Source: Acidobacteriota bacterium (GTDB lineage Bacteria; Acidobacteriota; Thermoanaerobaculia; Thermoanaerobaculales; Sulfomarinibacteraceae). Taken from it: a stretch of 33,257 nt of DNA. A program made the translations under genes and the position numbers. The notes beneath the pieces were generated by a model. It saw only the letters and a program-made list of their open reading frames with translations. It did not search any database and was not told where the DNA came from. The stretch spans positions 1-33,257 of the forward strand of contig WGCW01000096.1 of assembly GCA_015493585.1 (NCBI GenBank). Direction: 5' to 3'. Positions 3,854-32,077 of this stretch are shown here, one piece after another. How positions within the stretch are numbered: the stretch's first letter is position 1; each line of letters starts with the position of its first letter.

Positions 3854-3859
3854 CAGGCC

Positions 3860-6214: not shown

Positions 6215-6220
6215 CGGCCA

Positions 6221-8568: not shown

Positions 8569-8573
8569 GTTCG

Positions 8574-9767: not shown

Positions 9768-9768
9768 T

Positions 9769-14387: not shown

Positions 14388-14491
14388 ACGTCAACGCTAC
14401 AAACAGAAGGGATCACCAACCGATGTCGACCGCTAATCACAAGCTGGAACCGAACCCAACACTCTCGACACAATTCCACACTTCAACCCAT

Positions 14492-15499
14492 TCACCTCCG
14501 CATTGCCTCAAGTAGCCTTCGCCGCATTCGCCTAACCATCCGCAGACCAGGATGGTTTTCCAGTATCGTATAGATGACGGGCGACCGCAAAGCAACTGTA
14601 CCAAAGGTCTTTTTGAACTCCTTTACGCCCTCGTGGCCCCCGCTAGGATTAAAGTCGTACCACTTGTACCCCTTGCGCCAGGCATCAACGACGATATGGT
14701 GTACTAGAAGGTGACGAATACCGAAACGAAAGTAGTCAGCCAAAAATGACGCGTGCCATTCAACACAATGATCGCGATGGTAGAAATTTACGTTACCGCC
14801 GACAATTTCGTTGCTGCGAGACGCAACAATCCACAACACCACGCTCTCGCCGCTCATTTCGCTCAGCAATCTAAACAAATCTAATGAGTAATGGTCTTTG
14901 GGATCTTCTCCCCATCTTCTTACGGCTCTTTGGAAGATGGAAAAATATTTTTCCCAATCATTCCAACTTTCCGCTTTATACGCGTAGAATCCGTTTCTGA
15001 CGGCCTTGTTTATCTGTTTCCTGACGCTACGTTTGTATTTCTGTTTAAGCTCATCCTCATCAGTAATCGATTTCAGATCGATGACCTGAGTCTCATCTTC
15101 CCGTGCTCCTTTGAGCCCCAATTTGAGTTCCTGATCGTTGTAAGGATTTACCCGCCACACGAGATTCCGGTAGTTACGCAGAATATGTCGAAACAATAGC
15201 CCACCATGGACCTCCGAAAGACTATCTAGCGACAACCAGCCCCCAAAAGTTCCGGCCGGTGAGGACAGGTATTTTCTGAGAAGCCCCCCGCCTCCCATCT
15301 CGCAGGAGAAGGGAAGGAGAGCGGTCCGACCGTCAGAAAACTCAATTACGCGCGCATCCCCTCGTATCCTTCGATTGGTATAGCTCTCCCAAAGCTTTGC
15401 CCACGATGGCGTCTGAAAAAACGTCGCATACCGGCACTCTCGCGCGTAATGGTCCCACTCGGCCGTTGATGCCAATCGGGCATTCGATATTCTCACCAT
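14492..15499 (-). CDS. FemAB-like / GNAT-fold acyltransferase (Acetyltransf_6)
   Basis: 335 residues. The pattern is that of the FemAB-related GNAT family: FFQTPSWAKLWESY near residue 27, SVRKQINKAVRNGFYAY near 155, VGGNVNFYHRDHCVEWHASF near 235, and the terminal block YKWYDFNPSGGHEGVKEFKKTFG near 290. Members are found in polysaccharide and exosortase-associated loci, where they transfer acyl or aminoacyl groups to sugars. The gene is visibly more AT-rich (roughly 14.7-15.2 kb) than its neighbours. It sits in its own gaps (162 bases before, 104 after) without translational coupling, which suggests later insertion. Ribosome binding is weak (GAGG about 11 bases before ATG). Substrate unknown. 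Confidence 0.82.
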   Translation of the reverse strand: MVRISNARLASTAEWDHYARECRYATFFQTPSWAKLWESYTNRRIRGDARVIEFSDGRTALLPFSCEMGGGGLLRKYLSSPAGTFGGWLSLDSLSEVHGGLLFRHILRNYRNLVWRVNPYNDQELKLGLKGAREDETQVIDLKSITDEDELKQKYKRSVRKQINKAVRNGFYAYKAESWNDWEKYFSIFQRAVRRWGEDPKDHYSLDLFRLLSEMSGESVVLWIVASRSNEIVGGNVNFYHRDHCVEWHASFLADYFRFGIRHLLVHHIVVDAWRKGYKWYDFNPSGGHEGVKEFKKTFGTVALRSPVIYTILENHPGLRMVRRMRRRLLEAMRR

Positions 15500-15588
15500 T
15501 TCGCTGCTTGCCTCAACTTCTTGACTTCCCGTTCCCCTTCCCGAGGTAAATCGATTGGACTCCCATACCTACCCGGCCTGAGCCAGGC

Positions 15589-15690
15589 CTATTGAGATAC
15601 CCGCCGCATCGCCGTCTCTATGTCCCAGTAGAAATCTTTGGCCCCCATAAAAAAGCCAAACCTATTGGCCAGTGGATTGGGCTTGCCGTA
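15589..15690 (-). other. Orphan coding-like tail after the acyltransferase, possible frameshifted C-terminus
   Basis: Just past the acyltransferase stop, a different minus-strand frame stays open across the gene end. It reads KPNPLANRFGFFMGAKDFY followed by WDIETAMRRVSQ and a TAG at 15589-15591. The composition is protein-like and the segment is not preceded by its own start and ribosome binding site. Either a frameshift near 15690 cut short the native C-terminus of the acyltransferase, or this is the end of a lost gene. I cannot assign it to a family. Confidence 0.35.
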
Positions 15691-16246
15691 ACACTCGCGC
15701 TGGCACACCGCCGACTATAGCACCAGGCGGAATATCACAACGGACGAGGGCGCCAGCTGCCACAATAGCTTCCTCCCCGATCGTCACGCCCTGAAGAATT
15801 GTGGCCCTGGCCCCAATATATGCCCCGTTGCAGATCATGATTGAACCCTGGCTCGTAGGCAGAGCGCTATCCTTGACGGGGCTGGAACCCGCGTTCGTGT
15901 GGGTGATCAGCATCACCCCGTGTGAAATGGTCACCCGCTCACCAATCACTACTTTATCCTTAAGATCGAGGAAGCATTGGCGGCCGATAAAACAGCCTGG
16001 GCCAACCTGCAAATTCGCGTAAAAAAGCCTCCTATCCCTGTCTTCGGCGTTATGGACAAGTAGAGGCGGTTGCCACTGTACATCGGCTCCAATGGTCGCT
16101 CCGTGGTGCGCCAGAGTCCACGTCAGGCTCCGGCTAGGCATGCTGTGAAAGAGCACATTCAAACCATCCGCCCTATATACCTTGGCTACGGTCCAACCAG
16201 AGAGTCGAAATAAATATGCGATTAGCTTCTGAAGAACTTCCCTCAT
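15662..16246 (-). CDS. Hexapeptide-repeat acyltransferase (WcaF-like)
   Basis: 194 residues. A left-handed beta-helix is indicated by repeated hexads: GATIGADVQW near residue 50, VGPGCFIGRQCFLDLKDKV near 80, and CNGAYIGARATILQGVTIGE near 140. The insert ISHGVMLITHTNAG contains the catalytic-type histidine. It ends with VGGVPARVL, the usual closing coil. WcaF/NodL-type enzymes O-acetylate sugars of exopolysaccharide repeat units using acetyl-CoA. Its ATG overlaps the stop of the upstream GT4 as ATGA. The C-terminus may have been changed by a frameshift (see 15589-15690). Confidence 0.85.
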   Translation of the reverse strand: MREVLQKLIAYLFRLSGWTVAKVYRADGLNVLFHSMPSRSLTWTLAHHGATIGADVQWQPPLLVHNAEDRDRRLFYANLQVGPGCFIGRQCFLDLKDKVVIGERVTISHGVMLITHTNAGSSPVKDSALPTSQGSIMICNGAYIGARATILQGVTIGEEAIVAAGALVRCDIPPGAIVGGVPARVLRQAQSTGQ

Positions 16247-17448
16247 CCAGAAAGTACCTCCTCGTACCGCTCCACCATACGCTGATTTGAAAAGAGCTCG
16301 GCCACCACGCGGCCTCGATCGTCAGACATGAGACCTTCGTACCAACCCCTGCTGTATGCCAGGCGTAAACCGGCTTCCAGCCCGTTTGCGTCCGGAGGGA
16401 CCAGCGCAGTTCTCAAGGCCTCGTATTCCTTGATTCTTGTGCCTTCAGGAACTCGAGCATCGCATGACATCCGGTTGGCGAGGCGTTCGATGATCTCTGG
16501 GATCCCTCCTACTTCCGTGGCGACCAGCGCGGCCCGCGTCCGCAGCGCCTCGAGGATGACAATTCCGAACGGTTCTGACCTCGAAGGGGCTACCACCGCC
16601 AGCGCCCCGTACATGAGCGCCCCGACCTCATCATGTGGAACCGGACCCAAAAAACGCGTTAGGCCAGCAATCCCCAGTTTCGCCGCTCGCTGACGTAAAG
16701 CTTCCTCTTCCGGGCCCCCGCCGGCAATCCACAACTCCACATCGGGCAGAGCATCTCGAACGCGTGCGAAAGCATCAAGTGCCAGGTCAATCCCCTTCTT
16801 CTTCTGCAACCGCGCGACGATCAGAAAATACGACGAGGCGCACTCGTTGACCTTGGCCTCTCCCCCCCGTCGATCATTCAAGCCGTTTGGTATGGAGACC
16901 GCTCGCTTTGTATCAGGTTCAATCGCCAGTGCTCGCTGCAGGAGCCATTCGGAGCAGGCGGTAACCGCGTCGGCTTCACGAAGGAGCTGCCGGAAAAGGG
17001 CGAGGCCCCTGCTCTCGTTCGGCCCGTCAGCCCATCGCTCTACCTCGGCTCCATGCAATGACACGACAAGTCTGAGACCAAGTCGATGTTTGAGCTCGAG
17101 TGCCACCCCGATTTGGTCAGTCGGAAAGTGGATGTTGACCACGTCGGGCATGAGTTCCCGTGCCAGCCTCAGCACCTCCCGGTTCGCGTGCCGGTCGACA
17201 AATGGCGCCAGGAGAAAGAGATCAATGCGGAGGTTCCTGAGGTAATGCCAACTTGGGCGCATGAACAAGATCCGCCGGACCTTCACACCTCCTGCGTCCT
17301 CGACTCTAAGCAGCGACCGCGGGTATCTATTGGTGATCACGCTGACTTCGTGGCCCTTGTCTTTCAAACCCCGCGCCAGGTTTTTTGTCACCACCTGCAA
17401 ACCGCCGACGACCGGCGGGTACGAGGCAGTCAGCAACAACACCCGCAC
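16243..17448 (-). CDS. GT4 glycosyltransferase
   Basis: 401 residues from the GTG at 17448, one base after the upstream TAA. The frame reaches 17586, but the family N-terminus VRVLLLTASYPPVVGGLQ begins at this GTG. The donor domain shows SYFLIVARLQKKKGIDLALD, ELWIAGGGPEEEALRQRA and an intact EX7E in SRSEPFGIVILEALR, followed by VGGIPEII. This is a typical retaining GDP/UDP-sugar transferase of family 4 at the membrane. It is closely packed with the GT2 before it and the acyltransferase after it, so the three likely act on the same part of the repeat unit. Confidence 0.9.
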   Translation of the reverse strand: MRVLLLTASYPPVVGGLQVVTKNLARGLKDKGHEVSVITNRYPRSLLRVEDAGGVKVRRILFMRPSWHYLRNLRIDLFLLAPFVDRHANREVLRLARELMPDVVNIHFPTDQIGVALELKHRLGLRLVVSLHGAEVERWADGPNESRGLALFRQLLREADAVTACSEWLLQRALAIEPDTKRAVSIPNGLNDRRGGEAKVNECASSYFLIVARLQKKKGIDLALDAFARVRDALPDVELWIAGGGPEEEALRQRAAKLGIAGLTRFLGPVPHDEVGALMYGALAVVAPSRSEPFGIVILEALRTRAALVATEVGGIPEIIERLANRMSCDARVPEGTRIKEYEALRTALVPPDANGLEAGLRLAYSRGWYEGLMSDDRGRVVAELFSNQRMVERYEEVLSG

Positions 17449-17449
17449 G

Positions 17450-18382
17450 TTATTTTTCTTCCAAAGCGACGGGACGGTCCGCGCCGCTGGCCCTCTCGAT
17501 GAGCAGCTGACGGAAAACGCCGTAGCGCCACGCAATCCCAGCGGCTCCCAGTAAGGGCAACGCCGCCAGCCTATGCAATCTCCCATCTACCCGTCGCGCC
17601 ATCACGAAAGGCGTGTAGAACTGCGAGGCAAAGAAGTTCACACTCCTCAGGACGTCCTTCGGGGTTCGCAGGCGATGCGGGTAAAGACAGTACATCTCCG
17701 GCCATTTTTGCCTCACGAGGTAGTACGCACGGCCGTACATGTAGTGCTGGTGCAAAAAACCCCGTAGGGTCGCACGGTGATAATGTTTAACACGCACCTT
17801 TGGATCGAAAAGGATCTGGTATCCAAGCCGCTTCACCCGCCAGTTGAAATCCACGTCCTCGCCCCGGAACAGTGTCACATCTTGCAGCCCTACCTCTTGC
17901 AGGACCTCTCTCTTGTACGAGACATTGACGCCCGGCAGCGTCCTCACGTCCTGCAGGCCCTCCCAGTGCGGAAACGTAATCGCATCTGCCACGAGGGTGA
18001 CCAGGTTGTTCCCACCAGCTCCAAACACGGGCCCGCCGACTGCACCCGCCTCCGGATGTTCCCCATGACTTCTCTTGAGCTCACGGATCCAGTCGGGAAA
18101 GACCTCCGCGTCGTCATCCGTCATCGCCACCACGTCGCCCCGGCACTCCTGAAGGCCGATATTCCTGCTGGTTGCCAGGTTGATGTTTTTCGTTCGGATC
18201 AACCGCACATCAACATCATTGATCCCAATATACCTTTCAACAACGTGGTCCGCCTCAGACGTACCGCCGTTCACAACGACGACCTCATCCGGCTTTTCGT
18301 CAGTCTGGACAACAACGGATGCGAGTACCTGGTCAAGAAGCTGAGGCCTGTTGTAGGTGCATATCAGTACTGAAACTCGCAT
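17450..18382 (-). CDS. GT2 glycosyltransferase
   Basis: 310 residues from ATG 18382. Upstream codons to 18448 precede the family N-terminus MRVSVLICTYNRPQLL, and no strong ribosome binding site exists, only AAGAAGAG. GT-A landmarks are VVVVNGGTSEAD, the metal-binding MTDDDAEVFPDWI, VGGPVFGAGG, GVNVSYKREVL and the acceptor acidic motif FRGEDVDFNWRVKRLG. A hydrophobic helix near the C-terminus (LLGAAGIAWRYGVF) could tether it to the membrane. It opens the three-gene coupled group 18382-15662. Substrates cannot be read. Confidence 0.88.
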   Translation of the reverse strand: MRVSVLICTYNRPQLLDQVLASVVVQTDEKPDEVVVVNGGTSEADHVVERYIGINDVDVRLIRTKNINLATSRNIGLQECRGDVVAMTDDDAEVFPDWIRELKRSHGEHPEAGAVGGPVFGAGGNNLVTLVADAITFPHWEGLQDVRTLPGVNVSYKREVLQEVGLQDVTLFRGEDVDFNWRVKRLGYQILFDPKVRVKHYHRATLRGFLHQHYMYGRAYYLVRQKWPEMYCLYPHRLRTPKDVLRSVNFFASQFYTPFVMARRVDGRLHRLAALPLLGAAGIAWRYGVFRQLLIERASGADRPVALEEK

Positions 18383-18711
18383 GTCTCTTCTTGTCAACGC
18401 TTTGGAATCCCGTTTAAAAAAATCGCCACAGATTGTCGATCTCCGCAAGAACCCTAAGGCGCAATGGTAAATGCAGCCTATGGCGAGCCCGCGCGTAACT
18501 CAATCCGGTCATCTGCTCCCTTGCGACCCATCCAAATACCTCAAGTTCCAGCGCGCTCGGTTTATTTAATTTCGCCATACTTGTGTTCTGCTTCCCTCGA
18601 TCGTCTACCGGGTGAGCCGAAGATCCAGGAACTGGCGTCCGGGGAAGTTCCATGCGGTGGTCATGAGACATTCCGGCCACTTTAACGTTCTGTACGCCGG
18701 GCCCTACCATT
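18383..18711 (-). other. 329-base gap with an unassigned open tail
   Basis: No complete gene is supported. A minus-strand frame from ATG 18575 to the stop at 18414 encodes 53 residues (starting MAKLNKPSALELEVFGWVA) that are Arg/Leu rich and resemble no family I know. It may be a gene remnant or chance. At its left border, on the minus strand, CTACCAT / ATGGTAG forms a seven-pair hairpin that overlaps the stop codon of the next GT4 (18697-18720 region). It is not followed by a T-run, so I do not call it a terminator. Confidence 0.4.
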
Positions 18712-19809
18712 TTACATGGTAGAAAAAAGATCGTCGTACAGTGTAGCAATCCGGTCCCAGGAGAACCTGGAAACAACCCATTCTCGGTTTGTTCGACCCA
18801 TTTCCTCCCCACGAGCGAGGTCACGGGCGAGGGCAACGAGCACTTCGCCTACACGGCGCGCGTTACCGCGGTTCACGAACACCGCCCCCTTCGGGTGGCA
18901 TATTTCGTCGAACGGCCGTTCCGTGGCGACGACGAGCGGGAGTCCGGTCGCCATAGCTTCCAACGGCGCCAGAGGCAACGCCTCGCCTTTGGCCAAGGCT
19001 ACAAAAACATCAGAAGCTCGAAGCCATGGTGCCGGGTCGCCGACGTCCCCGAGGAAGCGAACGTTCGACTCAACTCCTAGTTCAATAGCCAATTCACGCA
19101 GATTGTCCTCCTCGGGCCCATCCCCTACAATGAGGTACAGTAATTTCGGCACCTTACGAATGGCTTCCGCAAGAGCCCGTAGACTCTCAGCGATTCCCTT
19201 CCGTTCTTCCAATGCGGCTACGCTGATCAAGACAACCTGATCCCCGGGAAGACCGAGACGTTTCCGAATAACATCCTTCCGGGCAGCCGGCACAAAATGT
19301 TCGACGTCCACTCCGTTCGGAATGACCGTAGCGTGCCGCCCCAGTGCCTCTGTAATCCCATCGGCCACAAAAGCGCTCACCGCCACTACGTGAAGACCCA
19401 TCTCAAGCAAGCCGCTCTGGCGAACGTGATCGTAACGGCTCGGGACCTGCCAATAGGGGCTGTTGAGAACCAGCACCGTCTTCCCAACGTAACTCCTCCC
19501 TCGGCGGAGAGCTGCGTCCTCGCCGTGCCAAAGGAAGTTGACGAGAACACGATCCGGTTTCTTCCGGCGCAACAATCTAGCGTAGGAAATTCCAGCCCAC
19601 AATCGTTGGAAATAACGGGGCAGGTACATTGTCGTAAGTGTCACGTCCCCGGCCAGGTCCCCCCACGGCCATTGCCCATGTGGCGAGCGCCAAGCCACCA
19701 GATTAACCGAATGCCCCCGTTGCGCCAGGTGGTTTGCCAGGGAAACGGAAAAACGTTCAATACCCCTCTCATACCGGAAGAGAAACGGAGAAATGATGAG
19801 AATTCGCAT
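18712..19809 (-). CDS. GT4 glycosyltransferase
   Basis: 365 residues, starting MRILIISPFLFRYERGIERF at ATG 19809, with AAGGTG about 11 bases upstream. Donor-domain marks: VISVAALEERKGIAESLRAL near residue 200, LYLIVGDGPEEDNLREL near 235, and an intact EX7E in AKGEALPLAPLEAMATGLPL. An FxRYERGIERF N-terminus with GG/GIER instead of GGxE is within family range. It follows the sulfotransferase-like gene by 41 bases. Predicted to act on the cytoplasmic lipid-linked intermediate. Confidence 0.9.
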   Translation of the reverse strand: MRILIISPFLFRYERGIERFSVSLANHLAQRGHSVNLVAWRSPHGQWPWGDLAGDVTLTTMYLPRYFQRLWAGISYARLLRRKKPDRVLVNFLWHGEDAALRRGRSYVGKTVLVLNSPYWQVPSRYDHVRQSGLLEMGLHVVAVSAFVADGITEALGRHATVIPNGVDVEHFVPAARKDVIRKRLGLPGDQVVLISVAALEERKGIAESLRALAEAIRKVPKLLYLIVGDGPEEDNLRELAIELGVESNVRFLGDVGDPAPWLRASDVFVALAKGEALPLAPLEAMATGLPLVVATERPFDEICHPKGAVFVNRGNARRVGEVLVALARDLARGEEMGRTNREWVVSRFSWDRIATLYDDLFSTM

Positions 19810-19850
19810 TCTAAAAGCTACACCTTACCCCAGAAGATGTGTTCATGAAA

Positions 19851-20651
19851 CTACCGCTTCGACCACCGTTCACGAAAACCCGCGACCTCCCTTTCCGAAT
19901 AATAATGTCTACAGTATTTACTGTCATACTGGGTATCAAGGTAATTCCGGTCGAACTTGATGTATTTCACGAAATCCTTGTAATTCTGCTTGTAGGCCCT
20001 ATCAGCAGAGGTGTTACATATGCGAAGACGGAATTTGGGGATGTCAAGGAATTCTGCGATGCACCTCTCTTGAATGGACACATCAATTTCCGATTTTAAA
20101 AGCAGGATGCTCAGCCTCCCAGACTCTATGGTCGAAAACCCCGCTTCCTGATCGAAGGGTTGCAAAAATACATCCACACCGGTCGATTTCAGAAACTCGT
20201 CATCAAACCACCGAATACCATCATAATGACGGTCCCATTCATAATACATCTTCCCTAACTCTTCGAGGGAGTAATCCTGCATCCCTCCCTGAAAATACAA
20301 CGGAAAGTCATGTGCGAAGGAGGATACGTTGCGAGCAACGGGCTCTCTAACCATAGTAATAATCTTGATCGTTGCGTCCTTTGCCATTTCGAATCTCAAC
20401 CAAAGATATTCATGGAACTTTTGTTTCCGAAGGTCTCGAATGTAGTGAAAATGGATGACCGGGAAGTAGCCCTCGCCCAGCAGGGAATAATACACACTTT
20501 GCGAACCAACTTTTCCCATCTGGTAAACTAGAACAAGTGGTTTGTTATGCGCCAACATGCGCAAAGTATCAAGCGCATGTTTTACGGTGTTCGAGCCCCT
20601 CCGTCCCAGTGCCCGTACGATCAGTTTCTTTACTCTTGCCTCCCTGGTCAC
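19851..20651 (-). CDS. Sulfotransferase-like capsular polysaccharide protein (NKWYS-like)
   Basis: 266 residues. KPLVLVYQMGKVGSQSVYYS near residue 38 matches the 5'-phosphosulfate-binding loop seen in the sulfotransferase superfamily and in the putative capsular synthesis family NKWYS (PF10364). TMVREPVARNVSSFAHDF near 105 matches the 3'-phosphate-binding motif (R-x-P-x6-S). The C-terminus YDSKYCRHYYSEREVAGFR is family-like. If active it would use PAPS to sulfate a sugar of the polymer. The gene is distinctly AT-richer than most neighbours, like the FemAB gene, and has spacers on both sides, consistent with separate acquisition. Target unknown. Confidence 0.72.
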   Translation of the reverse strand: MTREARVKKLIVRALGRRGSNTVKHALDTLRMLAHNKPLVLVYQMGKVGSQSVYYSLLGEGYFPVIHFHYIRDLRKQKFHEYLWLRFEMAKDATIKIITMVREPVARNVSSFAHDFPLYFQGGMQDYSLEELGKMYYEWDRHYDGIRWFDDEFLKSTGVDVFLQPFDQEAGFSTIESGRLSILLLKSEIDVSIQERCIAEFLDIPKFRLRICNTSADRAYKQNYKDFVKYIKFDRNYLDTQYDSKYCRHYYSEREVAGFRERWSKR

Positions 20652-20899
20652 GGTTTACAGTCTCCAGTCGAGTTTCTCAAGCAAATTCGCCTAAGGTGTC
20701 ATCGTTACAAAGGGCGCCGCCGCCAACCTCGGTACGCCGGCCATCAAGTCCATCTTCAAATGCGTCCAAACACAAGGTGACGTCCATACCCTCAATCACA
20801 CGCTCGAATTCCCTTCTCTTGACCGCAGTGTTGTTCGCGGTCTCTGCCCAACGCGTTGGGCCAGCACGGATCATCCATCCTTGGCATTCCAATTCCGTG
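20652..20899 (-). other. 248-base spacer with an unassigned protein-like frame
   Basis: A minus-strand frame ending at 20677 runs in from the end of the flippase gene. It encodes a protein-like tail containing EFERVIEGMDVTLCLDAFED and DGRRTEVGGGA. It has no convincing start of its own and overlaps the flippase 3' end in another frame. I cannot place it in a family. It may be the end of a lost gene. Nothing else is seen. Confidence 0.3.
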
Positions 20900-22438
20900 T
20901 CAATTTGGAAACCTGCCACGCCTGCGAACATCCCTGAGGGCGCTGCGTCGAAGCTCCCTCAGCGGCTCCCATGGCCAAGCCATAAGCCCTGCGCCATAGA
21001 GCATGGCCCCAATCAATACCTCCAAGCCTAGTGCCCCCACGCTCCTCAGGGCAGTGAAGCTCAAAGTGAACGACATTCCATAGACGGCAACTGCCATCAG
21101 GCTGCTCAACACCAGCGCGGGAGTGAGTGAATGACCAAAATCTTTGATACCAAAGCCGACTTGCTGGTACGCCCACAGCTGGTAAGGGATTCCCGTGATC
21201 GCCACCACGCAGGAAACGACTACAGCAACAACCAGGAGACTGCCGGTCTGAATGCCGATCAGCAGTGACACTAACAGGGCTGCCGTGCGTCCTGCGGTGA
21301 CAAGAAAGACCGCTTTGGCTTTTCCCCTACTGAGCAATACGGCCGTCGCCGCTTCCACGGAGTACACAAGCCCCGCCGGTGTTAGCGCCCGGAGCAGCAC
21401 CGACACACCCGACCATTTCGGCCCGTAAACGACACCAATGAACTGTGGCGCCACCGCAGCGAGGCCAAAGAGTATCGGAAAAACCAACAATGAAACGCCG
21501 AGGAGAGTCTTTTGCAGTCCCCGCTGCGTCCGGGGCTCGTCGTCCTGGACAATAGCAAAGACAGGGTACATTACCGACAAGATTACGCCGCTGAGTTGCG
21601 AACGGGGAATTTCAATCAGGCGAAATGCCATCGTATACAGGCCAAGTTCAGTTGCAGAAAGAAACTTCCCGATGATGAGGTAGTCGATATTCCCGGTAAG
21701 GTACCGGAAGAGCTGGAACCCGAGATAATAGCTGCCGAATCCCGCGATGTCCCGGAGGGCCGACAATTCGAAAGCCAATTTTGGGCGCCAGCCACAGAAC
21801 CGCCATGCGAGAACCGTCGCGACCAGAGGGGACACCAGGTTTCCTATAACCAGGCTCCAGTAACCAAGGCCCGCTGCCGCGGCACCTATCGAGCTCGCTC
21901 CACCCAGTATCATGCCCCCCCAATCCAGGAGGAACGTCTCCCTGAACCGCAACGCCTTGTAAATCAGTGCTCTTGGCACTGCAGAAGCAGTAGCGAAAAC
22001 GAAGCTCAGCGACGAAACGATAAAGATGGGTCCAACCTCGGGCGTTGAATAAAACCGCGCCAACCATGGCGCAGACAAACACGCGATACCCCACAGAACT
22101 ACACCAGTAACCACGTTGAGCCAAAAGACAGAAGAGAGCTGTATCTGGGTCAGTTCCTTTTTCTGGACCACCGCTCCGCCGAATCCCAAATCTGCGAGGA
22201 TCCGCCCAAGGCCAATAAATACGGCCGCCATTCCGACCAAGCCATAATCCCTCGGAAACAAAAGGCGGGCGAGGACAATTGAAATCCCGAATTGGACAAC
22301 CTGTTTCCCAATTCGATTCAACCCGGTCCAACCGAATCCCTCCAACGCCTTCTGTTTCAAATTCGCGACGCCGACTTCGTGCTCGGCGTCCACGCCGCGA
22401 AAATCCGGATCTCGATGGCCCTTGAAAAGCTTTGTCAT
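20900..22438 (-). CDS. Wzx-type oligosaccharide flippase (MOP superfamily)
   Basis: 512 residues with about 12-14 hydrophobic segments. The N-terminus ALEGFGWTGLNRIGKQVVQF, then LARLLFPRDYGLVGMAAVF and LADLGFGGAVVQKKELT, are hallmarks of the WzxC/polysaccharide-biosynthesis branch (Polysacc_synt). Downstream, FSFMTASAVPRAL-like and YLIIGKFLSATELGLYTMAF blocks also match. It should flip undecaprenyl-linked repeat units to the periplasm for the Wzy protein at 12861-14387. It is the first gene of the locus in the direction of transcription. No strong Shine-Dalgarno or consensus promoter is visible before ATG 22438. Confidence 0.92.
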   Translation of the reverse strand: MTKLFKGHRDPDFRGVDAEHEVGVANLKQKALEGFGWTGLNRIGKQVVQFGISIVLARLLFPRDYGLVGMAAVFIGLGRILADLGFGGAVVQKKELTQIQLSSVFWLNVVTGVVLWGIACLSAPWLARFYSTPEVGPIFIVSSLSFVFATASAVPRALIYKALRFRETFLLDWGGMILGGASSIGAAAAGLGYWSLVIGNLVSPLVATVLAWRFCGWRPKLAFELSALRDIAGFGSYYLGFQLFRYLTGNIDYLIIGKFLSATELGLYTMAFRLIEIPRSQLSGVILSVMYPVFAIVQDDEPRTQRGLQKTLLGVSLLVFPILFGLAAVAPQFIGVVYGPKWSGVSVLLRALTPAGLVYSVEAATAVLLSRGKAKAVFLVTAGRTAALLVSLLIGIQTGSLLVVAVVVSCVVAITGIPYQLWAYQQVGFGIKDFGHSLTPALVLSSLMAVAVYGMSFTLSFTALRSVGALGLEVLIGAMLYGAGLMAWPWEPLRELRRSALRDVRRRGRFPN

Positions 22439-22646: not shown

Positions 22647-22925
22647 TCAGAGGTCATCGGGCCAGGTCCGGGCGGCGTGGAGAACGCGGAGAATCTGTAC
22701 GTCGTCTCCCTTGACACGGTAGGCGACGATGTAGCTTGACACGACCAACTCTCTGGTTCCGGGAACTCTCCCCGGCCGTCCTGACGAGGGAACCGCTGCC
22801 AGCCGTTCGACGGCATCAAGCACCTTCTCCGCTTCCTGTGCCGAAGCGGCGGGGTTGTCCTGAGCGATGAAGTCAACGATTGCTTCCAGATCATCAACGG
22901 CCAGTGAGAGCCAGAGGACCCTCAC
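22647..22925 (-). CDS. ParE/RelE-family toxin
   Basis: 92 residues. The ParE pattern is clear: WLSLAVDDLEAIVDFIAQDN at the N-terminus, AVPSSGRPGRVPGTRELVV in the middle and YIVAYRVKGDDVQILRVLHA at the end, with the terminal arginine-tryptophan strand usual for gyrase-targeting ParE proteins. The start is GTG 22925, overlapping the antitoxin stop as GTGA, so translation is coupled. All core elements are present and it looks intact. Whether it acts on DNA gyrase or on mRNA cannot be told from sequence. Confidence 0.88.
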   Translation of the reverse strand: MRVLWLSLAVDDLEAIVDFIAQDNPAASAQEAEKVLDAVERLAAVPSSGRPGRVPGTRELVVSSYIVAYRVKGDDVQILRVLHAARTWPDDL

Positions 22926-23191
22926 CTGGCTTTCTTTCCGGCGGTGGTCCTGACGTCCTTCTCGAACCGCACGCGCAGTTCCTCATGTCCGGTGAATTCG
23001 GCGTCCGGGCGATCGGCTGCCTCAACGGCCTCCTCGATGGCCCTGACCTGCCATTCCTGAGCGTCGAGATATTCCTCGATGGCTCGACTCGCTAGGTAGG
23101 CCTTGGTGCGGTCCATTGCAGCGGCCAGTTTCTCCAGGCGGCCCTTAACGTCCACGGGGAGTCTGATGGTCAAGGTCGTGGTTTTCGGCAT
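22922..23191 (-). CDS. CopG/RHH-type antitoxin
   Basis: 89 residues from ATG 23191, with a perfect AGGAGGT site eight bases upstream. The longer frame to 23413 runs through repeats and is rejected. The N-terminal TTTLTIRLPVDVKGRLEKLA is a ribbon-helix-helix DNA-binding domain. The middle AYLASRAIEEYLDAQEWQVR is a helical linker, and the charged C-terminus should wrap the ParE partner. The upstream region holds three phased ACACAG boxes, the likely autoregulatory operator. Confidence 0.88.
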   Translation of the reverse strand: MPKTTTLTIRLPVDVKGRLEKLAAAMDRTKAYLASRAIEEYLDAQEWQVRAIEEAVEAADRPDAEFTGHEELRVRFEKDVRTTAGKKAR

Positions 23192-23207
23192 GGTGCGCAC
23201 CTCCTGT

Positions 23208-23721: not shown

Positions 23722-24348
23722 TCAGCGAAGGATTGCATCGACCCAGCTTTCGAGGTCGGCCTTGACCCGGTTCCAACTGACGTCCGCGAGTAGCCGGAGC
23801 GGTGGTTCGTGTTCGGCATCGTCGAAGAAGATCAGGCTGCGAAGGACGTGGCCGGGATCGGCACCGTATTTCTTCTCATACAGAGCGAGGTACTCTTCGA
23901 GGCGCCTGTGCCGGGTGACAAGCACCCAGAGATCCACGAAGTCCTTGCGGCTCCCCCGGGAGGCCACGGCGGCGAGCTTCATGGCGGCGATGTCATCGAG
24001 GGAAGCCAACGGGACGCTGGTCCCTCCCGGTTGGAGCAGTGGCTCAAGGAGACCGTACGAAGAGCCGATGAAACTGACCCGGATGCCGCCGATGCTCACG
24101 TAGAGCGTCTCGGGCGCCGTTGAGACGATCGTCATCCCTCCGGCGATGCGTCTCAAGCGGCCCGCCAGAACCAGGGGGTCGCCGATCGACGGAGCGAACA
24201 GATCGAGGTCGGCTGAAAGACGGTGGGCTTCGAGCAGCGCCAGTGCGGTACCGCCCGCCAGGTAGAACCCTTCGTCCGCGAGAAAGGAGGGAAGGGCCTC
24301 GTACGCTTCCCTGACGCCAGGCGGTGTGGCTTCCCAGTGGAGGTTCAT
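23722..24348 (-). CDS. AbiEii/AbiGii-like nucleotidyltransferase toxin
   Basis: 208 residues from ATG 24348. It shares one base with the stop of the upstream gene (TGATG) and is preceded by GGAAAG. Residues about 32-50 read LAGGTALALLEAHRLSADLD: GGTAL plus S-x-D-x-D is the catalytic motif of the AbiEii/MenT-type DNA-polymerase-beta fold. KLAAVASRGSRKDFVDLWVL near 130 is the second conserved block (K, R, K-D, D). Family members act as toxins of type IV-like or AbiE systems by transferring nucleotides to tRNA. The protein is near the small end of the family. It looks intact. Confidence 0.82.
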   Translation of the reverse strand: MNLHWEATPPGVREAYEALPSFLADEGFYLAGGTALALLEAHRLSADLDLFAPSIGDPLVLAGRLRRIAGGMTIVSTAPETLYVSIGGIRVSFIGSSYGLLEPLLQPGGTSVPLASLDDIAAMKLAAVASRGSRKDFVDLWVLVTRHRRLEEYLALYEKKYGADPGHVLRSLIFFDDAEHEPPLRLLADVSWNRVKADLESWVDAILR

Positions 24349-24650
24349 CAATGCCACGATCTTTCCCGGCCCCGCGCGTTTCGGACCCACTCCCTGGTCG
24401 TGGATTCCTCGATGCCGGCCATGTGGCACCAGAAGCGCAACTCGCGCGGGGGAAGCACTCGCTGCCCACGGCTCTCAAGGTAGGCGGCGAGGCGGGCGCG
24501 GTTGACCGCCCGGAGGAGCCAACGCATTTCGGAGACCCCGCCGGCGGACATCACGCGCTCCAGGAGCGTGTCCGGGAGCTCCGTGCCGTTCTGAAGCACC
24601 GCCCCGTCGTACTCCCACATCAGACGAAGAACCTGTTCCGGAATCTTCAT
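24348..24650 (-). CDS. DUF6922-like partner (probable antitoxin) of the nucleotidyltransferase
   Basis: 100 residues. The core LLERVMSAGGVSEMRWLLRA, then AAYLESRGQRVLPPRELRFW, looks like the DUF6922 domain (hydrophobic -ERVL-YG-...-RWL- followed by RxLsPRxxxFW) that commonly precedes AbiEii-type nucleotidyltransferases. The assignment is from memory and moderately secure. The gene pair shares one base, so expression is coupled. ATG 24650 sits exactly where transcription should start from the TATAAT at 24657-24662, so this gene is probably translated from a leaderless mRNA. Confidence 0.65.
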   Translation of the reverse strand: MKIPEQVLRLMWEYDGAVLQNGTELPDTLLERVMSAGGVSEMRWLLRAVNRARLAAYLESRGQRVLPPRELRFWCHMAGIEESTTREWVRNARGRERSWH

Positions 24651-24656
24651 AACTAC

Positions 24657-24876: not shown

Positions 24877-25137
24877 TCAGACGTCATGATAGTGGGTTCG
24901 CGCCCGGAGGATGTAGACCGTTTGATCCTCCTCATCGATCCGGTAAACGATGCGGTCCCGGTAGGTCAGACGTACGGACCAGTACCCCGCCAGGTCTCCG
25001 ACCAGCCGCTTCCCAGAGGTTGGGTTTTCTGCAATCCGATGGATAAGGATATCCCGAAGCTTGCGACGGAGCTTTGGAGTCAATTGCTCGATATCCTTCC
25101 GGGCTCGCCGCGTGATTCGGATGGTGTAGGGAGGCAT
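24877..25137 (-). CDS. yoeB: YoeB-type toxin
   Basis: 86 residues, beginning directly after the antitoxin stop (TGA-ATG). IRITRRARKDIEQLTPKLRR forms the RelE-fold N-terminus. GDLAGYWSVRLTYRDRIVYR is the YoeB signature (GDLxGYWSxRI..xxHRxVY), and the C-terminus RARTHYHDV provides the His of the catalytic end region. YoeB is a ribosome-dependent mRNA endonuclease. The operator upstream of the antitoxin, with paired TGTACA boxes, independently supports the YefM-YoeB assignment. Confidence 0.85.
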   Translation of the reverse strand: MPPYTIRITRRARKDIEQLTPKLRRKLRDILIHRIAENPTSGKRLVGDLAGYWSVRLTYRDRIVYRIDEEDQTVYILRARTHYHDV

Positions 25138-25395
25138 TCAGATATTTTCGAACGCCTCATCGATGGAGAGAGTGTGCCCGGCCTCGATCTCATCCTCGGC
25201 CTCGCGAAGGCTCTCGCGGAGCCCGGGAACGCTCAGCAACTCGAGGGTCTCCATCAGGTTCTCATAGTCTTCTTCGGACAACAGCACGACGGCGCCGTCA
25301 CGGTGCGTGATCCTGACAGCCTCGTGGGACTGCCGTGCCCTCCGGATCAGGGTAAAAAGCTCTTTCCGCGCCTCAGTAGCTGTGATCCCAGTCAT
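25138..25395 (-). CDS. yefM: YefM/Phd-type antitoxin
   Basis: 85 residues from ATG 25395; the longer frame to 25434 would run through the operator and is rejected. GITATEARKELFTLIRRARQ and EAVRITHRDGAVVLLSEEDY match the Phd/YefM DNA-binding and dimerisation domain. The C-terminal third is acidic (LREAEDEIEAGHTLSIDEAF) and should wrap the toxin. The leader is short (about 13 bases from the predicted start site) and the ribosome binding site is poor (GGGGGT within a GGGGTACCCC palindrome). Confidence 0.88.
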   Translation of the reverse strand: MTGITATEARKELFTLIRRARQSHEAVRITHRDGAVVLLSEEDYENLMETLELLSVPGLRESLREAEDEIEAGHTLSIDEAFENI

Positions 25396-25414
25396 CGGGG
25401 TACCCCCAAGGTTA

Positions 25415-25443
25415 ATGTACATGTTTCTGTACATTCCGTCAAG
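25415..25443 (-). promoter_or_regulatory. yefM-yoeB promoter covered by two TGTACA operator boxes
   Basis: AATGTACA (25415-25422) and TGTACATT (25429-25436) form a perfect inverted repeat with six bases between arms. The two TGTACA cores are 12 bases centre to centre, the geometry known for the E. coli yefM-yoeB operator. On the minus strand TTGACG (25443-25438), a 17-base spacer and TACATT (25420-25415) make a plausible -35/-10 pair. The operator therefore fills the promoter spacer and overlaps the -10. Confidence 0.72.
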
Positions 25444-25694: not shown

Positions 25695-25919
25695 TCAACG
25701 GAGAAGAGCGAGGAACTCGTCGACTGAAAGTCCAGCGGCCCGGATGAGCGCTCGAAGGGTTCCGATGGAAAGTTCCTTGTGTTGCGGTATCGAAAGGTTG
25801 ACTCGTACGCCTTCCTTGACCAGTACCAAGTGGCTGCCGACCTGGCCAATCGCAACCCATCCGGCCTTCTCGAAGGCTTTTGCCGCCGCCTTGCCCGAAA
25901 TGTTCGCCAGTCGTGCCAT
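25695..25919 (-). CDS. hicA: HicA toxin
   Basis: 74 residues from ATG 25919, two bases after the hicB stop; the frame open to 26003 overlaps hicB and is not used. ISGKAAAKAFEKAGW, then GSHLVLVKEG with the catalytic histidine in GSH, and LSIPQHKELSIGTLRALIRA match the double-stranded-RNA-binding-like HicA mRNA interferase. Gene order is antitoxin first, as in part of the HicBA class. It looks intact. Confidence 0.9.
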   Translation of the reverse strand: MARLANISGKAAAKAFEKAGWVAIGQVGSHLVLVKEGVRVNLSIPQHKELSIGTLRALIRAAGLSVDEFLALLR

Positions 25920-25921
25920 CC

Positions 25922-26137
25922 TTAGACGGCCACGACGATCGAAGGTGAACCAGAGTTCTCTGAACCCGAAGCCAAGGCCTTCTGGTCCTCCGCCCAGAGC
26001 CATGCGGTGATGGCTTCCTTGACGTTTTCAAGGGCTTCCTTCTCATCCTTACCCTGGGAGACGCAGCCGGGAAGCGCCGGAACCTCGGCCACCACCCAAC
26101 CATCCTCAGCCCTTTCCAACGTTACGTGAAATAACAT
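25922..26137 (-). CDS. hicB: HicB antitoxin
   Basis: 71 residues. LERAEDGWVVAEVPALPGCV followed by SQGKDEKEALENVKEAITAW is the HicB partial RNase-H-like fold. No helix-turn-helix or RHH tail is obvious after residue 50, so DNA binding may be weak or lie in the short C-terminus. ATG 26137 has AAGGAG eight bases upstream. A consensus promoter lies at 26195-26223. Confidence 0.9.
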   Translation of the reverse strand: MLFHVTLERAEDGWVVAEVPALPGCVSQGKDEKEALENVKEAITAWLWAEDQKALASGSENSGSPSIVVAV

Positions 26138-26166
26138 CTTTGTCTCCTTGTTCTCTTCGCCTCACC

Positions 26167-26504: not shown

Positions 26505-26771
26505 CTATTCGTATGCCTTGCTCCGGTGGCGTACCACGAGGACATGAATCAGTGGGGCTTGGTCGTCGATCCGGTAGATGACGCGGTAGTCGCCCACCCA
26601 AATCCGCCATGAGTCCCCAGACCCTGCGATCTTCCTGCAACCCGGAGGGCGAGGCTCGACGGCCAGCTCCTGGATCTTCGAGACAACTCTGCGAACAACC
26701 GTGGTTTCGAGGGATTCAATCTCTTTTCTTGCCGTACGGGCGAAGATGATTCAATAGGCCTTCTCAGGCAT
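26505..26771 (-). pseudogene. RelE-family toxin broken by a TGA at codon 7
   Basis: From ATG 26771, inside the antitoxin's last codons, the frame reads MPEKAY, then TGA (26753-26751). It then runs open to TAG 26505-26507 as IIFARTARKEIESLETTVVR, followed by GSGDSWRIWVGDYRVIYRID and VLVVRHRSKAYE. The downstream part is a complete RelE toxin of normal length (88 codons in total). Family members often read -YWIIF/-YxIxF at this point, and TGG to TGA is a single change. No ATG, GTG or TTG in frame restores the N-terminus. UGA is an ordinary stop in many genes here, so readthrough is unlikely. The antitoxin is intact. Inactivation of the toxin, or a sequencing error, explains it. Confidence 0.82.
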
Positions 26772-26955
26772 CCAGCTTGCCCTGAGCTTTAAGACGCTGG
26801 ACGACGTCTTCAAACGACTCAGTGGGTTCGTTGCGCCGATGCTCTATGAGGTACGAGTCATACACATTCTCCCAGAGCTCAGCATGCGTGGACAGGTCAA
26901 TCACCACTGCGGTCAGGTGGCCGCTGTCGTCAACAACGTATTGGATGCCCTTCAT
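26764..26955 (-). CDS. RelB-like small antitoxin
   Basis: 63 residues. The start IQYVVDDSGHLTAVVIDLST, followed by ELWENVYDSYLIEHRR and ending VVQRLKAQGKLDA, matches the small antitoxins (xYVVDExGxxTAVVIxxxxWE) that pair with RelE toxins. ATG 26955 has GAAGGGGG about nine bases upstream. Its last eight bases overlap the start of the toxin frame. With the toxin broken, the gene may persist as an orphan antitoxin. Confidence 0.75.
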   Translation of the reverse strand: MKGIQYVVDDSGHLTAVVIDLSTHAELWENVYDSYLIEHRRNEPTESFEDVVQRLKAQGKLDA

Positions 26956-27000
26956 CGTTTGGCCCCCTTCCGCCCGTCACTGGGAGATCTGTCAGGCCTT

Positions 27001-27028
27001 ATTATACTCCGCACGGCTTCTTCGTCAG
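27001..27028 (-). promoter_or_regulatory. Promoter of the relB-like gene
   Basis: TATAAT on the minus strand (27006-27001) with CTGACG (27028-27023) sixteen bases upstream. The start site falls near 26994, giving a leader of about 39 bases with a ribosome binding site. So the promoter of the broken module is still well formed. Confidence 0.55.
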
Positions 27029-27330: not shown

Positions 27331-27741
27331 TCAGGGGAGCAGGTCTTCCGGCTGCGTTATGAGTCCTAGGCCTTCGACGCTCTCGAAATGGCGATCGTAG
27401 GAGAAGACGGGCAAACCACTCTGAAGAGCTGTGGCGGCGATCCAGAGGTCGTTGGCCGGAATCGGGCGGCCCAATCGCCGGAGATTCGCATAGATTCGTC
27501 CGTACCATGAAGCGGTGGTGGAATCCACCGTCGCCACCTGTACCCGTGGGGAGTCCAGAAAGGCCGTCAGCTCCCTCCGATTTTCCGTTTCCCGAGCTCC
27601 GAAGGCGAAGCCAGCCAGGAGCTCGCCCAATACGATCACCGGAATCACGATCGTTTCGGCAAGCTGCAGCATCTCCACAGCCTGTTGCCGTCCACGCTTG
27701 AACGCTACGTATGCGTTGGTATCGAGGATGAGGCCACTCAT
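27331..27741 (-). CDS. VapC/FitB-type PIN-domain toxin
   Basis: 136 residues from ATG 27741, which overlaps the antitoxin stop as ATGA; a GTG two codons earlier is possible. The PIN acidic set is complete: Asp in LILDTNAYVAF, Glu in IVLGELLAGF, Asp in IPANDLWIAATAL and Asp in VFSYDRHFESV. These coordinate the metal of an RNase, typically cutting tRNA or rRNA. The C-terminus (EGLGLITQPEDLLP) is standard. No damage seen. Confidence 0.92.
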   Translation of the reverse strand: MSGLILDTNAYVAFKRGRQQAVEMLQLAETIVIPVIVLGELLAGFAFGARETENRRELTAFLDSPRVQVATVDSTTASWYGRIYANLRRLGRPIPANDLWIAATALQSGLPVFSYDRHFESVEGLGLITQPEDLLP

Positions 27742-27995
27742 TCCCACATGCCCGGGTCAATCTGTTCTGTCTCCTCCAGAGCTGCCAAAACCGCCTGCGC
27801 TTCTTCTTCGGTCCATGTTCCCGCCAGCTCATCCAGGTCGTGGTGTCGGGGGTGCCATGGACGGCGCGCAAGGCCTGCGCCTTCCCGTACGAGCCGGAGA
27901 AGGAACGCGTTGAGTGAAACGCCCTCTCGCCGCGCCTCCTCCCGAAGGCGTTCAGCTTCTTCTTCTTTCAGCCCTCGAAGCGTCATCGTAGGCAT
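27738..27995 (-). CDS. FitA-like RHH antitoxin of the VapC module
   Basis: 85 residues. MPTMTLRGLKEEEAERLREE, then GVSLNAFLLRLVREGAG, is a FitA-type ribbon-helix-helix domain (MTLRxLxxxxxxxLRxxAxxxGxSLNxFL). A Trp-rich C-terminal tail (HDLDELAGTWTEEEAQAVLA) would block the toxin. ATG 27995 has AGGAGGT seven bases upstream. The upstream operator is described at 28009-28026. Confidence 0.88.
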   Translation of the reverse strand: MPTMTLRGLKEEEAERLREEARREGVSLNAFLLRLVREGAGLARRPWHPRHHDLDELAGTWTEEEAQAVLAALEETEQIDPGMWE

Positions 27996-28026: not shown

Positions 28027-28427
28027 ATTCTGCCACCAGCCGCTCAAGATGTCTCGTGCAGGAAACACCGGAAACGCGAAAGAAGACAAGCTTGTTCTTC
28101 CTGCGTTCTACGAGCGGTCTTCGTGAGGCCTTATCCTGAACCGGAAGAATTTCTTGTGATTGAATCGCAGGAGCTGTCATCGACTATCTGTCCGGCGCTC
28201 TAACCTATCAGCCAAAGCTGGGATGTGGACACTGTCAGCAATCAGCAACCGCATGTATAAAGCTACCGCACTTGGATAGGAGACTAACTTCCTTATCCAT
28301 GGGAACTTAATATCCATCGCCGACTCAACGTGACGGCGATCATGCTACGCAGAATAATACTACAGTCTGGCAAGATGTCACCTCTCATGTTGAGACGGGG
28401 CCGGCGGGCCGGCCCACCTGGAAGAGG
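28027..28427. other. Gene-free stretch with one decayed family B unit and a hairpin
   Basis: About 28047-28125 looks like a worn family B unit (TGCAGGAAACACCGGAAACG ... TTCTTCCTGCGTTCTACGAG). ATCGCCG / CGGCGAT (28316-28322 and 28334-28340) is a perfect seven-base inverted repeat with an 11-base loop. GGATAGGA ... TTCCTTATCC near 28274-28298 is an imperfect one. No gene or clear promoter uses them. Confidence 0.45.
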
Positions 28428-29186: not shown

Positions 29187-30566
29187 CTACCGGCAGGCCC
29201 TGAGGACATCCGCGGGAGTGACCACAGGGCAGGAAAGCTGATCGGCCGCGCCATCGGGTAGCCAGAGGACGGGAAGAACATCCCTCCCTTCGGTAAAGGG
29301 CAGACGATCGATCTTGTCCATCAACTGACGGAGAACAGCACCTGCATCGATCCGGGTGGACCATTTCACCTCTCCGACGAGCAGGCCTTCTCCCCCGACC
29401 TCCCCTGCGACAACATCCACTTCGAGGGGTTTCCTATCCCGCCCGGGCCCCCACCACCTGAATGCCTTGCCCCACTCTCTTCCGGCCAGATCAAGCCGCG
29501 GGACGCTCTCGCGTGCGAGGTCTTCCCAGACCCCCGCAACATGATGACGAAAACCGGGCGCCAGATTTCGCCAGACTAGGTCCGGACTCCGAACCTCAAG
29601 CAGGGAACGGTTTGGCTCGACAAAACGGAAATAGAACCGGAGAAAAGGATCGTCGATGTCATAAAAGGACCGTTTTGAAGCCCTCTTCGGCGCGCCATAG
29701 GGAACCTCACGCCGGACGAGCCCCATCTCCACCAGGCGCTGCAGCGGCCGAGTGAGGGATGTCGCCGGTTTTCCAAGCCTCCCTGCAATTTCAGAGAGCC
29801 TGTGGCAACCACTGCCAATGAGATTGAGGATCGAGGCAGCCTGGGTCGTATCCCGAAGATCATCCAGCAAGAGTCGTCCGGGCTCATCGTGAAGCACGCC
29901 CAGCGGGTCCAGTACGAGAGACGCCACGGCAGCAGAAAGATCTCTCTGCTCCGCCGCCAGTTCCCAGTAACGGGGGATTCCACCCCACACGGCGAAAGCC
30001 TCAACCGCTTCCTCCGCCCTGACGATGCCCAGAGCTTCCGGAATCCAGCCAAAGGAAAGCGGCCGAATCTTGAGGATCTCGTCTGCCCTTCCAAACAGCG
30101 GAGCCGACCGATCCATTACAAGCCCCTGCATCATTCGCTGGGAGGATCCCGCCACGATGAGGTGGGGAGACCCTGCGGCGTTGCCATCAATGAGCTTTTG
30201 CAAGATGGAAGGAAGACCACGCTCTTGGGCGACGAGAGAAGGCAACTCATCGAGGATGAGCACAGATCCCGCGGGGGCATCCTTCCACCACCGGCCAAGG
30301 AGAGCTTCCCAGTCAGGGTAGTCAACCCGGTCGAAGCCCTCGATCATGCGTGCGATTTCAACGGCAAGAGTCGCCCGCTGGAGGATTGGCGCACGATCGT
30401 CACCAACGTAATTGACAGACCGCTCAGCGGGAATGGCCTCACGTAACAGCCGGGACTTACCACATCGGCGCCTTCCGTAAAGCACCCCGAAACCGCCAGT
30501 CGACCTCCGAATCAGCCGGTCGATCCGGGCTTTCTCTGCTGTACGATCAAGGAAACGTAGCTTCAT
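29187..30566 (-). CDS. AAA+ ATPase with DUF234-type nuclease-like C-terminus
   Basis: 459 residues from ATG 30566 (upstream frame to 30656 rejected; CGGAGC lies about ten bases before the ATG). Walker A GVLYGRRRCGKSRLL is near residue 30 and Walker B SVLILDELPSL near 105. An arginine and sensor region follows (IVAGSSQRMMQGLV), then a winged-helix segment (CHRLSEIAGRLGKPATSLTR) near 270. The C-terminal DUF234 domain has LEVDVVAGE ... LLVGEVKWS, fitting a PD-(D/E)xK fold. This is the archaeal-type ATPase/DUF234 group found in many bacteria, of uncertain role (suspected in mobile elements or defence). It is bracketed by direct composite repeats. Confidence 0.88.
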   Translation of the reverse strand: MKLRFLDRTAEKARIDRLIRRSTGGFGVLYGRRRCGKSRLLREAIPAERSVNYVGDDRAPILQRATLAVEIARMIEGFDRVDYPDWEALLGRWWKDAPAGSVLILDELPSLVAQERGLPSILQKLIDGNAAGSPHLIVAGSSQRMMQGLVMDRSAPLFGRADEILKIRPLSFGWIPEALGIVRAEEAVEAFAVWGGIPRYWELAAEQRDLSAAVASLVLDPLGVLHDEPGRLLLDDLRDTTQAASILNLIGSGCHRLSEIAGRLGKPATSLTRPLQRLVEMGLVRREVPYGAPKRASKRSFYDIDDPFLRFYFRFVEPNRSLLEVRSPDLVWRNLAPGFRHHVAGVWEDLARESVPRLDLAGREWGKAFRWWGPGRDRKPLEVDVVAGEVGGEGLLVGEVKWSTRIDAGAVLRQLMDKIDRLPFTEGRDVLPVLWLPDGAADQLSCPVVTPADVLRACR

Positions 30567-31305: not shown

Positions 31306-31486
31306 GCTCCCGTTCAGTTCCACGAGAATACAGAGCGGGAGCGGCCAATGTCCCCGGACTCTAAGGCTCTGAAGTACTCTGTGCGCGGTTCTGGCCTCTT
31401 GCTTTCTCAGTGCTCTTGACACAACTACCGCGCATAGATTGCATATGCAACCTCTTGATCCTCTGTTATTTACCTGGTCCAGAACC
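31306..31486 (-). other. Leader-like spacer downstream of the NusG paralogue
   Basis: 181 bases with no gene. TTGCATATGCAA (31439-31450) is a perfect 12-base palindrome. On the minus strand GCGGTAG (31431-31425) matches the core of the RfaH-recruiting ops element (GGCGGTAG) in seven of eight positions and lies just after the NusG-like gene on the same strand. GCGGTAG also occurs by chance elsewhere (near 26585), so this is weak. Confidence 0.3.
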
Positions 31487-32038
31487 TCAGCTTGGAACCA
31501 GTGCCAGCGCTGCGACGTCAATCTCGACACGCCGCTGACTCCGCAGGAAGTCCAACAAGATCCGAGCCCGCTGGCCCCCCTTGAGATACCCTTGAAACAC
31601 ACCCTCAAACCCACGCAGCGGGCCACCCATGACGCGGATACGGGAACCCTTTTTCATCTTCCGCCGGAGGTCATCCGGCACGATGTAGCCCCGTTCCCCC
31701 TCACGGCGCATCAGCTCATCGATCAAGACCTGTTCAACCGTAGCAAGCCTCCGGTCGAAGCTCAGCGGCCGCAGCACGCCGGGACAATACCGGACGGCGT
31801 TGAGCTCCTGGCTGGGATCACACGACACGAAGATGTAGCCGGGGAAGAGCGGCATCGGTCCCCGAGGCGCCCGCGTATGCCAGGGAGGTTGCAGAAAGAG
31901 GGGGCAGTAGGGATCCACGCCCCGTTGCGTGAGATGGTGGACGGCCACCCGCTCCTGGCGCGGCTTCGTACGAACCACCAGCCACAACCTGCTGACCTCG
32001 TACTCATCCCTGTTGAACGAGGAGCCATCACTGAACAT
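31487..32038 (-). CDS. Specialised NusG paralogue (RfaH/UpxY/LoaP-like antiterminator)
   Basis: 183 residues from ATG 32038, or 184 from GTG 32041. The longer frame to 32116 contains the promoter and is rejected. The NGN domain has RLWLVVRTKPRQERVAVHHL, GVDPYCPLFLQPP and PLFPGYIFVSCD. A KOW domain follows (KKGSRIRVMGGPLRGFEGVF, then RARILLDFL). Length and linker fit NusG paralogues that bind RNA polymerase and suppress pausing or termination in long polysaccharide operons. It is read toward the polysaccharide locus and could serve it in trans. Housekeeping NusG is unlikely, since no secE, rplK or rplA is adjacent. Confidence 0.85.
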   Translation of the reverse strand: MFSDGSSFNRDEYEVSRLWLVVRTKPRQERVAVHHLTQRGVDPYCPLFLQPPWHTRAPRGPMPLFPGYIFVSCDPSQELNAVRYCPGVLRPLSFDRRLATVEQVLIDELMRREGERGYIVPDDLRRKMKKGSRIRVMGGPLRGFEGVFQGYLKGGQRARILLDFLRSQRRVEIDVAALALVPS

Positions 32039-32040
32039 CA

Positions 32041-32077
32041 CGAAAACATTATGCCCATAATGCGCGAAATCCGTCAA
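32041..32077 (-). promoter_or_regulatory. Promoter with palindromic -10 for the NusG paralogue, leaderless
   Basis: On the minus strand TTGACG (32077-32072), 18 bases, then CATAAT (32053-32048). Seven bases after the last T is the G of GTG 32041, followed directly by ATG 32038. No ribosome binding site is present. CATTATG-CC-CATAATG (32047-32062) is a perfect inverted repeat that includes the -10 and may be an operator. Confidence 0.6.

Follow-up and report, generated by a model that had tools for sequence, protein, structure and literature searches.

Which genes does a NusG paralogue serve when it lies about 9 kb upstream of a polysaccharide locus, on the same strand, with toxin-antitoxin (TA) modules, an ATPase gene, and repeats in between? 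This arrangement, described in the original prediction, was confirmed in the window analyzed here, which is the whole of contig C96 (33,257 bases) of the 3.1-Mb draft genome G000. The recruitment of specialized NusG proteins has been worked out in detail for E. coli RfaH, which uses the ops element, and for LoaP, which uses an RNA hairpin, and approximately 95% of the RfaH proteins in one survey came from Proteobacteria (PMC7593976, PMC12691694). A search for literature on ops elements in Acidobacteria found none.

The gene, its promoter, and its surroundings

Genes in the window were called by homology, and the coordinates of the features are collected in Table 1. The paralogue matched PF02357 (NusG NGN) with 47 bits (E 3.6e-12) and was distinct from the housekeeping nusG of G000, a separate gene on contig C11 (123 bits). 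The window paralogue thus has the NGN domain, and its genome the separate housekeeping nusG, by which a NusG-SP is recognized. Its closest relative was found in a Thermoanaerobaculia (Acidobacteriota) metagenome-assembled genome (MAG); the relative G007, used below, is the Thermoanaerobaculia MAG GenBank JAMOWA010000056. Compared with G007, the window gene gave a dN/dS of 0.11, indicating purifying selection, with synonymous sites near saturation. Relatives of the same family (f1) showed the same promoter arrangement ahead of the gene as the window.

Table 1. Coordinates of the features discussed (window positions, except for the last line).
Feature	Position	Strand	Remarks
wzx-led polysaccharide locus	5540..22438	minus	wzx, NKWYS, glycosyltransferases, wzy-like, aminotransferases, sugar transferase
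RelB/RHH antitoxin + ParE toxin	22647..23191	minus	
AbiEii-type toxin + putative partner	23722..24650	minus	partner without family match
Phd/YefM antitoxin + YoeB/ParE toxin	24877..25434	minus	
HicAB TA module	25695..26137	minus	
RelB-like antitoxin, weak match	26764..26955	minus	partner directly downstream without annotation
VapBC-type TA module	27331..27995	minus	PIN toxin, RHH antitoxin
ops2 candidate	28253..28301	minus	bulged hairpin GGAT-a-AGGA..TCCT-ATCC, then GTGCGGTAGCTTTAT
Promoter-like site GTGACA-N16-TATTAT	28354..28381	minus	10/12 sigma-70-like; 84 nt before the ops2 GCGGTAG
ATPase_2/DUF234 gene	29187..30566	minus	first gene beyond ops1
ops1	31415..31456	minus	hairpin GGTTGC-ATAT-GCAATC, then GCGGTAG; 60 nt past the nusG stop
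NusG paralogue	31487..32038	minus	183 aa, intact ORF, NGN + KOW
Promoter TTGACG-N18-CATAAT	32048..32077	minus	9 nt ahead of the nusG ATG, near-leaderless
Decayed nusG relic	G000:C63:18763-19053		96-aa ORF heading the wzc-galU-ugd-uxs operon

The wzx gene (20900-22438, minus; PF13440, 290 bits) begins 9.05 kb downstream of the paralogue and is co-directional with it. The six TA modules at 22647-27995 are of differing families, occupy 5.3 kb, and are all co-directional with the wzx operon. A dispersed repeat with the core GACGAAGAATCTGGGCGG was present at window positions 30943, 32274, 28578, and 23299, among others; 112 copies occurred in the genome with at most one mismatch (none for the reversed control), many of them close to contig ends. 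Two PF14907 nucleotidyltransferase-fold genes (274-1482 and 3611-4984), one of them on the opposite strand, were found at the distal end of the wzx-led locus. ARAGORN called a tRNA-Ser(CGA) at 7124-7222, inside the aminotransferase ORF at 6221-7870, and this call may be spurious.

Position of the gene in relatives and origin of the window copy

A close paralogue (E ≤ 1e-20) was found in 19 of the 149 genomes of the class, seven in f1 and 12 in the sister family, f2. In G001 (of the same genus as G000), G007, and G008, the gene lay directly upstream of a gene for a Wzc-type chain-length/tyrosine-kinase protein; in G001 and G007, wzc was followed by galU, uxs, and ugd, so that the paralogue heads the operon. 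It preceded a gfo/idh gene in G002 and galU-uxs in G010. To judge from these gene orders, the site of the gene in family relatives is usually the head of a wzc-galU-uxs-ugd export operon. The paralogue was at the wzx locus in none of the relatives examined, and the closest counterpart of that locus among 36 relatives shared only 34% identity.

G000 itself retains a wzc-galU-uxs-ugd operon, which lies on contig C63 and is headed by a nusG relic. This relic aligned only to NusG residues of approximately 6-69 and 153-178, as expected of an in-frame internal deletion, grouped with G001 in the tree (88/90), and gave a dN/dS of 0.51 against G001 over 94 codons. Its promoter, CTTGACGCTTGT..ACACATAATACG, is common to G001, and the flank upstream of the promoter differs. 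By these sequence comparisons, C63 is the native site of the nusG paralogue in G000. The proteins of the wzc operon were 85-90% identical between G000 and G001, compared with 67-81% between G000 and G007, whereas the window NusG was 66% identical to that of its congener G001 and 80-82% identical to that of G007, which belongs to another genus. In the tree, the window NusG, G007, and G002 grouped together (96/95). These identities and the tree mark the window gene as a xenologue, or else as an old paralogue that was differentially retained.

Similar losses were seen in other draft assemblies. In G002 (contig C301), a like promoter was followed by a 40-aa nusG stub (..LSWAVVRTKADRERIAMVCLARVR) that ends in a stop codon overlapping the start codon behind it. 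G016 and G013 have the promoter fused to wzc and no nusG, whereas in their congener G008 nusG lies between the two. The loci L109, L110, and L107 (in G016, G013, and G005) carry wzc without nusG and still have the lost regulator's CTTGAC..ATAAT promoter, which in G005 lies 388 nt upstream. An intact paralogue was present at another place in G002, G013, and G000. This pattern suggests that such regulators have repeatedly been parted from the polysaccharide operons that they head.

These results bear on the history proposed in the original prediction, namely that the gene once headed the wzx operon and a TA island was then inserted between them. In its favor, gene and locus share strand and neighborhood, and ops2 with its promoter-like site is likewise upstream of the TA array. 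However, the arrangement occurs in no relative, no paralogue directly before wzx was found, the wzx locus is without a close relative, and the conserved site is the wzc operon. We therefore consider insertion very unlikely. With that history unsupported, the link between the gene and the wzx locus now rests on ops2.

ops-like elements 3' of nusG and in operon leaders

A feature new to this study, common to three genera, is a hairpin with GCGGTAG on its 3' side, 60-61 nt beyond the nusG stop codon: a 6-bp hairpin and ATGYGCGGTAGYTKTRTC were found 3' of nusG in the window, G007, and G002. The f2 genome G024 has GGTTTGC-GCGA-GCAAACC-AAC-GGCGGTAGC at 61 nt past the stop, and the distance from the nusG stop to GGTAG was 60, 61, 60, and 61 nt in G000, G007, G002, and G024, respectively. 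E. coli ops12 is GGCGGTAGCGTG (PMC5995543); the GCGGTAG of ops1 corresponds to bases 2-8 of the RfaH ops, and the flanks differ. GCGGTAG by itself was near chance in the window (five observed, 2.9 expected). ops1 was the only exact ATGNGCGGTAG in G000, and for a degenerate 15-mer derived from the three known sites, chance alone would give 0.001 occurrences per window and 0.09 per genome. Covariation in the f1 hairpin was not significant with three sequences, and the changes in the f2 hairpin were one-sided only.

Two covariance models were built, R1 from three f1 sequences and R2 from five f2 sequences. R1 scored ops1, one of its training sequences, at 56.2 bits. At E<1e-4, R1 gave three matches in 24 genomes, all 3' of nusG and all training sites; beyond these, every match in the 10 f1 genomes had an E of 0.2 or worse, and the best E in the 14 further genomes was no better than 0.02. 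R2 gave at least nine matches at E<1e-4 in 22 genomes, at least seven of them just 3' of nusG and at least two in the leaders of polysaccharide operons; because the first pass scored 150 of approximately 2,000 candidates per genome, further sites may exist. At least four strong R2 sites were outside the training set. Two adjoin nusG (G024, E 7e-8; G025, E 3e-5), and the other two are in G033 (contig C77) and G020 (contig C109). The G033 site (E 6e-9) precedes an operon for GDP-fucose synthase, GDP-mannose dehydratase, an epimerase, a glycosyltransferase, and Wzx, and in G020 a promoter, a 20-aa nusG stub, and the ops element (E 5e-8) are followed by wzz. In both genomes, the intact nusG is on a different contig. 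The architecture in f2 is thus that of f1, including two polysaccharide operons without a linked intact nusG.

In f2 genomes without nusG, the best R2 match was no better than E 0.007. No ops element was found in G001, G008, G010, or G013, in which the gene is present, indicating that ops is not universal in f1; more distant NusG-SP loci also yielded no element. R2 matches of 20-24 bits occurred in most genomes and were treated as noise. An R2 match in G000 (contig C25, 24.4 bits) was rejected because it overlaps unrelated genes, as was an R1 match in G012 (22.3 bits) with GCGGCAA instead of the core.

The ops2 candidate was outside the R1 training set. Its GTGCGGTAGCTTTAT matches the G007 site exactly, and exact core matches in G000 numbered two, both in the window, when the last letter of the pattern was widened to admit ops2. 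The R1 score of 17.7 bits (E 0.005 within the window) equals genome background, chance matches of the R1 and R2 models reaching 18-24 bits, and the hairpin is ordinary, 15% of windows being equally stable. Because the score is at background, the case for ops2 rests on its position, the promoter-like site, and the exact core. The six TA modules follow downstream on the minus strand, and wzx, on the same strand, comes after them at a distance of 5.8 kb from ops2. Immediately ahead of wzx, a promoter scan revealed no promoter-like site, and no ops site was found there. A tblastn search of the TA region for another remnant of nusG found none, and the sequence MIAVTLSRRWIL ahead of ops2, considered as a nusG stub, is too short to call. 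From this layout, it may be the second ops-like leader, at 28.25 kb, and not the gene, that the TA modules separate from wzx.

The main competing explanation is that the window paralogue serves only the C63 wzc-galU-ugd-uxs operon in trans, replacing its decayed nusG, in which case the proximity to wzx would be accidental and ops2 a chance match. The wzc-linked position of the gene in family relatives, the conservation of the C63 promoter with G001 despite decay of nusG, and the dN/dS of the relic agree with this. In contrast, the C63 region yielded no ops-like element, and both exact core matches of the genome are in the window; the absence from C63 is not decisive, because G001 also lacks ops there. 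We regard this explanation as unlikely. It is improbable that the gene was gained horizontally and has no present target, the ops-like sites being leftovers: its xenology and the ATPase gene, rather than a polysaccharide gene, next to ops1 would fit, but the low dN/dS against G007, albeit near synonymous saturation, and the retention of promoter and ops1 argue against it.

Proposed mode of action and comparison with known systems

We consider it reasonably probable that the window paralogue is an RfaH-like antiterminator loaded at ops-like sites, and that the TA array parts a second such site, not the gene, from wzx. The gene, the promoter-like site, the conservation of ops1, the relic, and the xenology are evident from the sequence; from them we infer recruitment, antitermination, a function for ops2, and read-through into wzx. 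A sigma-70-type promoter of its own would give the gene a near-leaderless mRNA. If the protein works like RfaH, polymerase pausing at ops would expose GCGGTAG on the non-template strand, after the small hairpin, and the NGN domain would bind the exposed core and stay on during elongation, keeping the polymerase processive along a long polysaccharide operon. In the presumed ancestral state, a single cassette comprised promoter, nusG, ops, and operon, with a cis-acting regulator at the head. In G000, the native C63 copy has lost its nusG, and the window contains an intact xenologous nusG-ops1 unit. The second leader (promoter and ops2, 28.25-28.38 kb) most likely feeds the TA array and the wzx operon; the leader on which the protein acts would then lie 3.2 kb from the nusG gene and 5.8 kb from wzx. 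Action at a distance, as originally predicted, is plausible.

More tentatively, Acidobacteriota may possess their own ops-guided NusG-SP system, in which cassettes repeatedly lose nusG, keep the promoter, ops, or both, and pass from cis to trans control, the second leader of the window regulator driving the TA array together with the polysaccharide operon. If true, the conserved ops-like site beside Acidobacteriota NusG-SP genes would be a second ops system amenable to testing. The wzc promoters, at which nusG is intact, a relic, a stub, or cleanly deleted, would illustrate the step from a head-of-operon to a trans-acting regulator, a step inferred rather than documented in the cited literature.

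The original prediction was right in seeing here a specialized NusG paralogue of the RfaH/UpxY type that is associated with polysaccharide genes. Among NCBIfam models, the window protein scored highest with RfaH (74.9 bits), followed by UpxY (62.6), LoaP (39.7), and NusG (32.7). It was below the cut-offs of TIGR01955 (RfaH equivalog, 144.5 bits), NF033644 (UpxY, 100 bits), and NF033641 (LoaP, 125 bits). By sequence, it is an RfaH/UpxY-like NusG-SP with an ops-like signal, below every curated family cut-off tested.

The likeness to RfaH lies in the NGN-KOW paralogue, the GCGGTAG core, the polysaccharide targets, and a candidate leader site behind a promoter; unlike in RfaH systems, a conserved hairpin lies just ahead of the core and the element is 3' of the regulator gene. 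Of the RfaH residues that contact ops, the window protein keeps K10 and H20, with R23 replaced by Q and R73 by P (one stretch of the RfaH sequence used for this mapping was confirmed); the proline at R73 counts against the RfaH-like reading. G007, G002, and G001 likewise have the equivalents of K10 and H20. In RfaH, H20 helps to read the T6 position of ops; in f2 proteins this residue is A, T, V, or L, and f2 sites vary at T6, which amounts to one phylogenetic contrast only. AlphaFold predicted an NGN domain and a beta-barrel KOW (mean pLDDT 84, 13-sequence alignment), and the nearest solved folds were NusG and RfaH on paused polymerase. In contrast to the autoinhibited, alpha-helical KOW of RfaH, the modeled KOW is beta and lacks RfaH-type autoinhibition. 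Monomorphic (beta-KOW) NusG-type proteins are thought to act in cis, a point against the proposed mode of action, and, according to a 2026 preprint, mostly adjoin long operons (PMC13015549), which fits the placement of the gene in relatives. As with UpxY, relatives carry the gene at the head of their own polysaccharide operon, at wzc, whereas the window gene is detached and does not come first in the wzx locus. A leader hairpin and a long biosynthetic operon are shared with LoaP; however, LoaP recognizes a leader RNA hairpin of the UNCG type, to which the loops found here do not belong.
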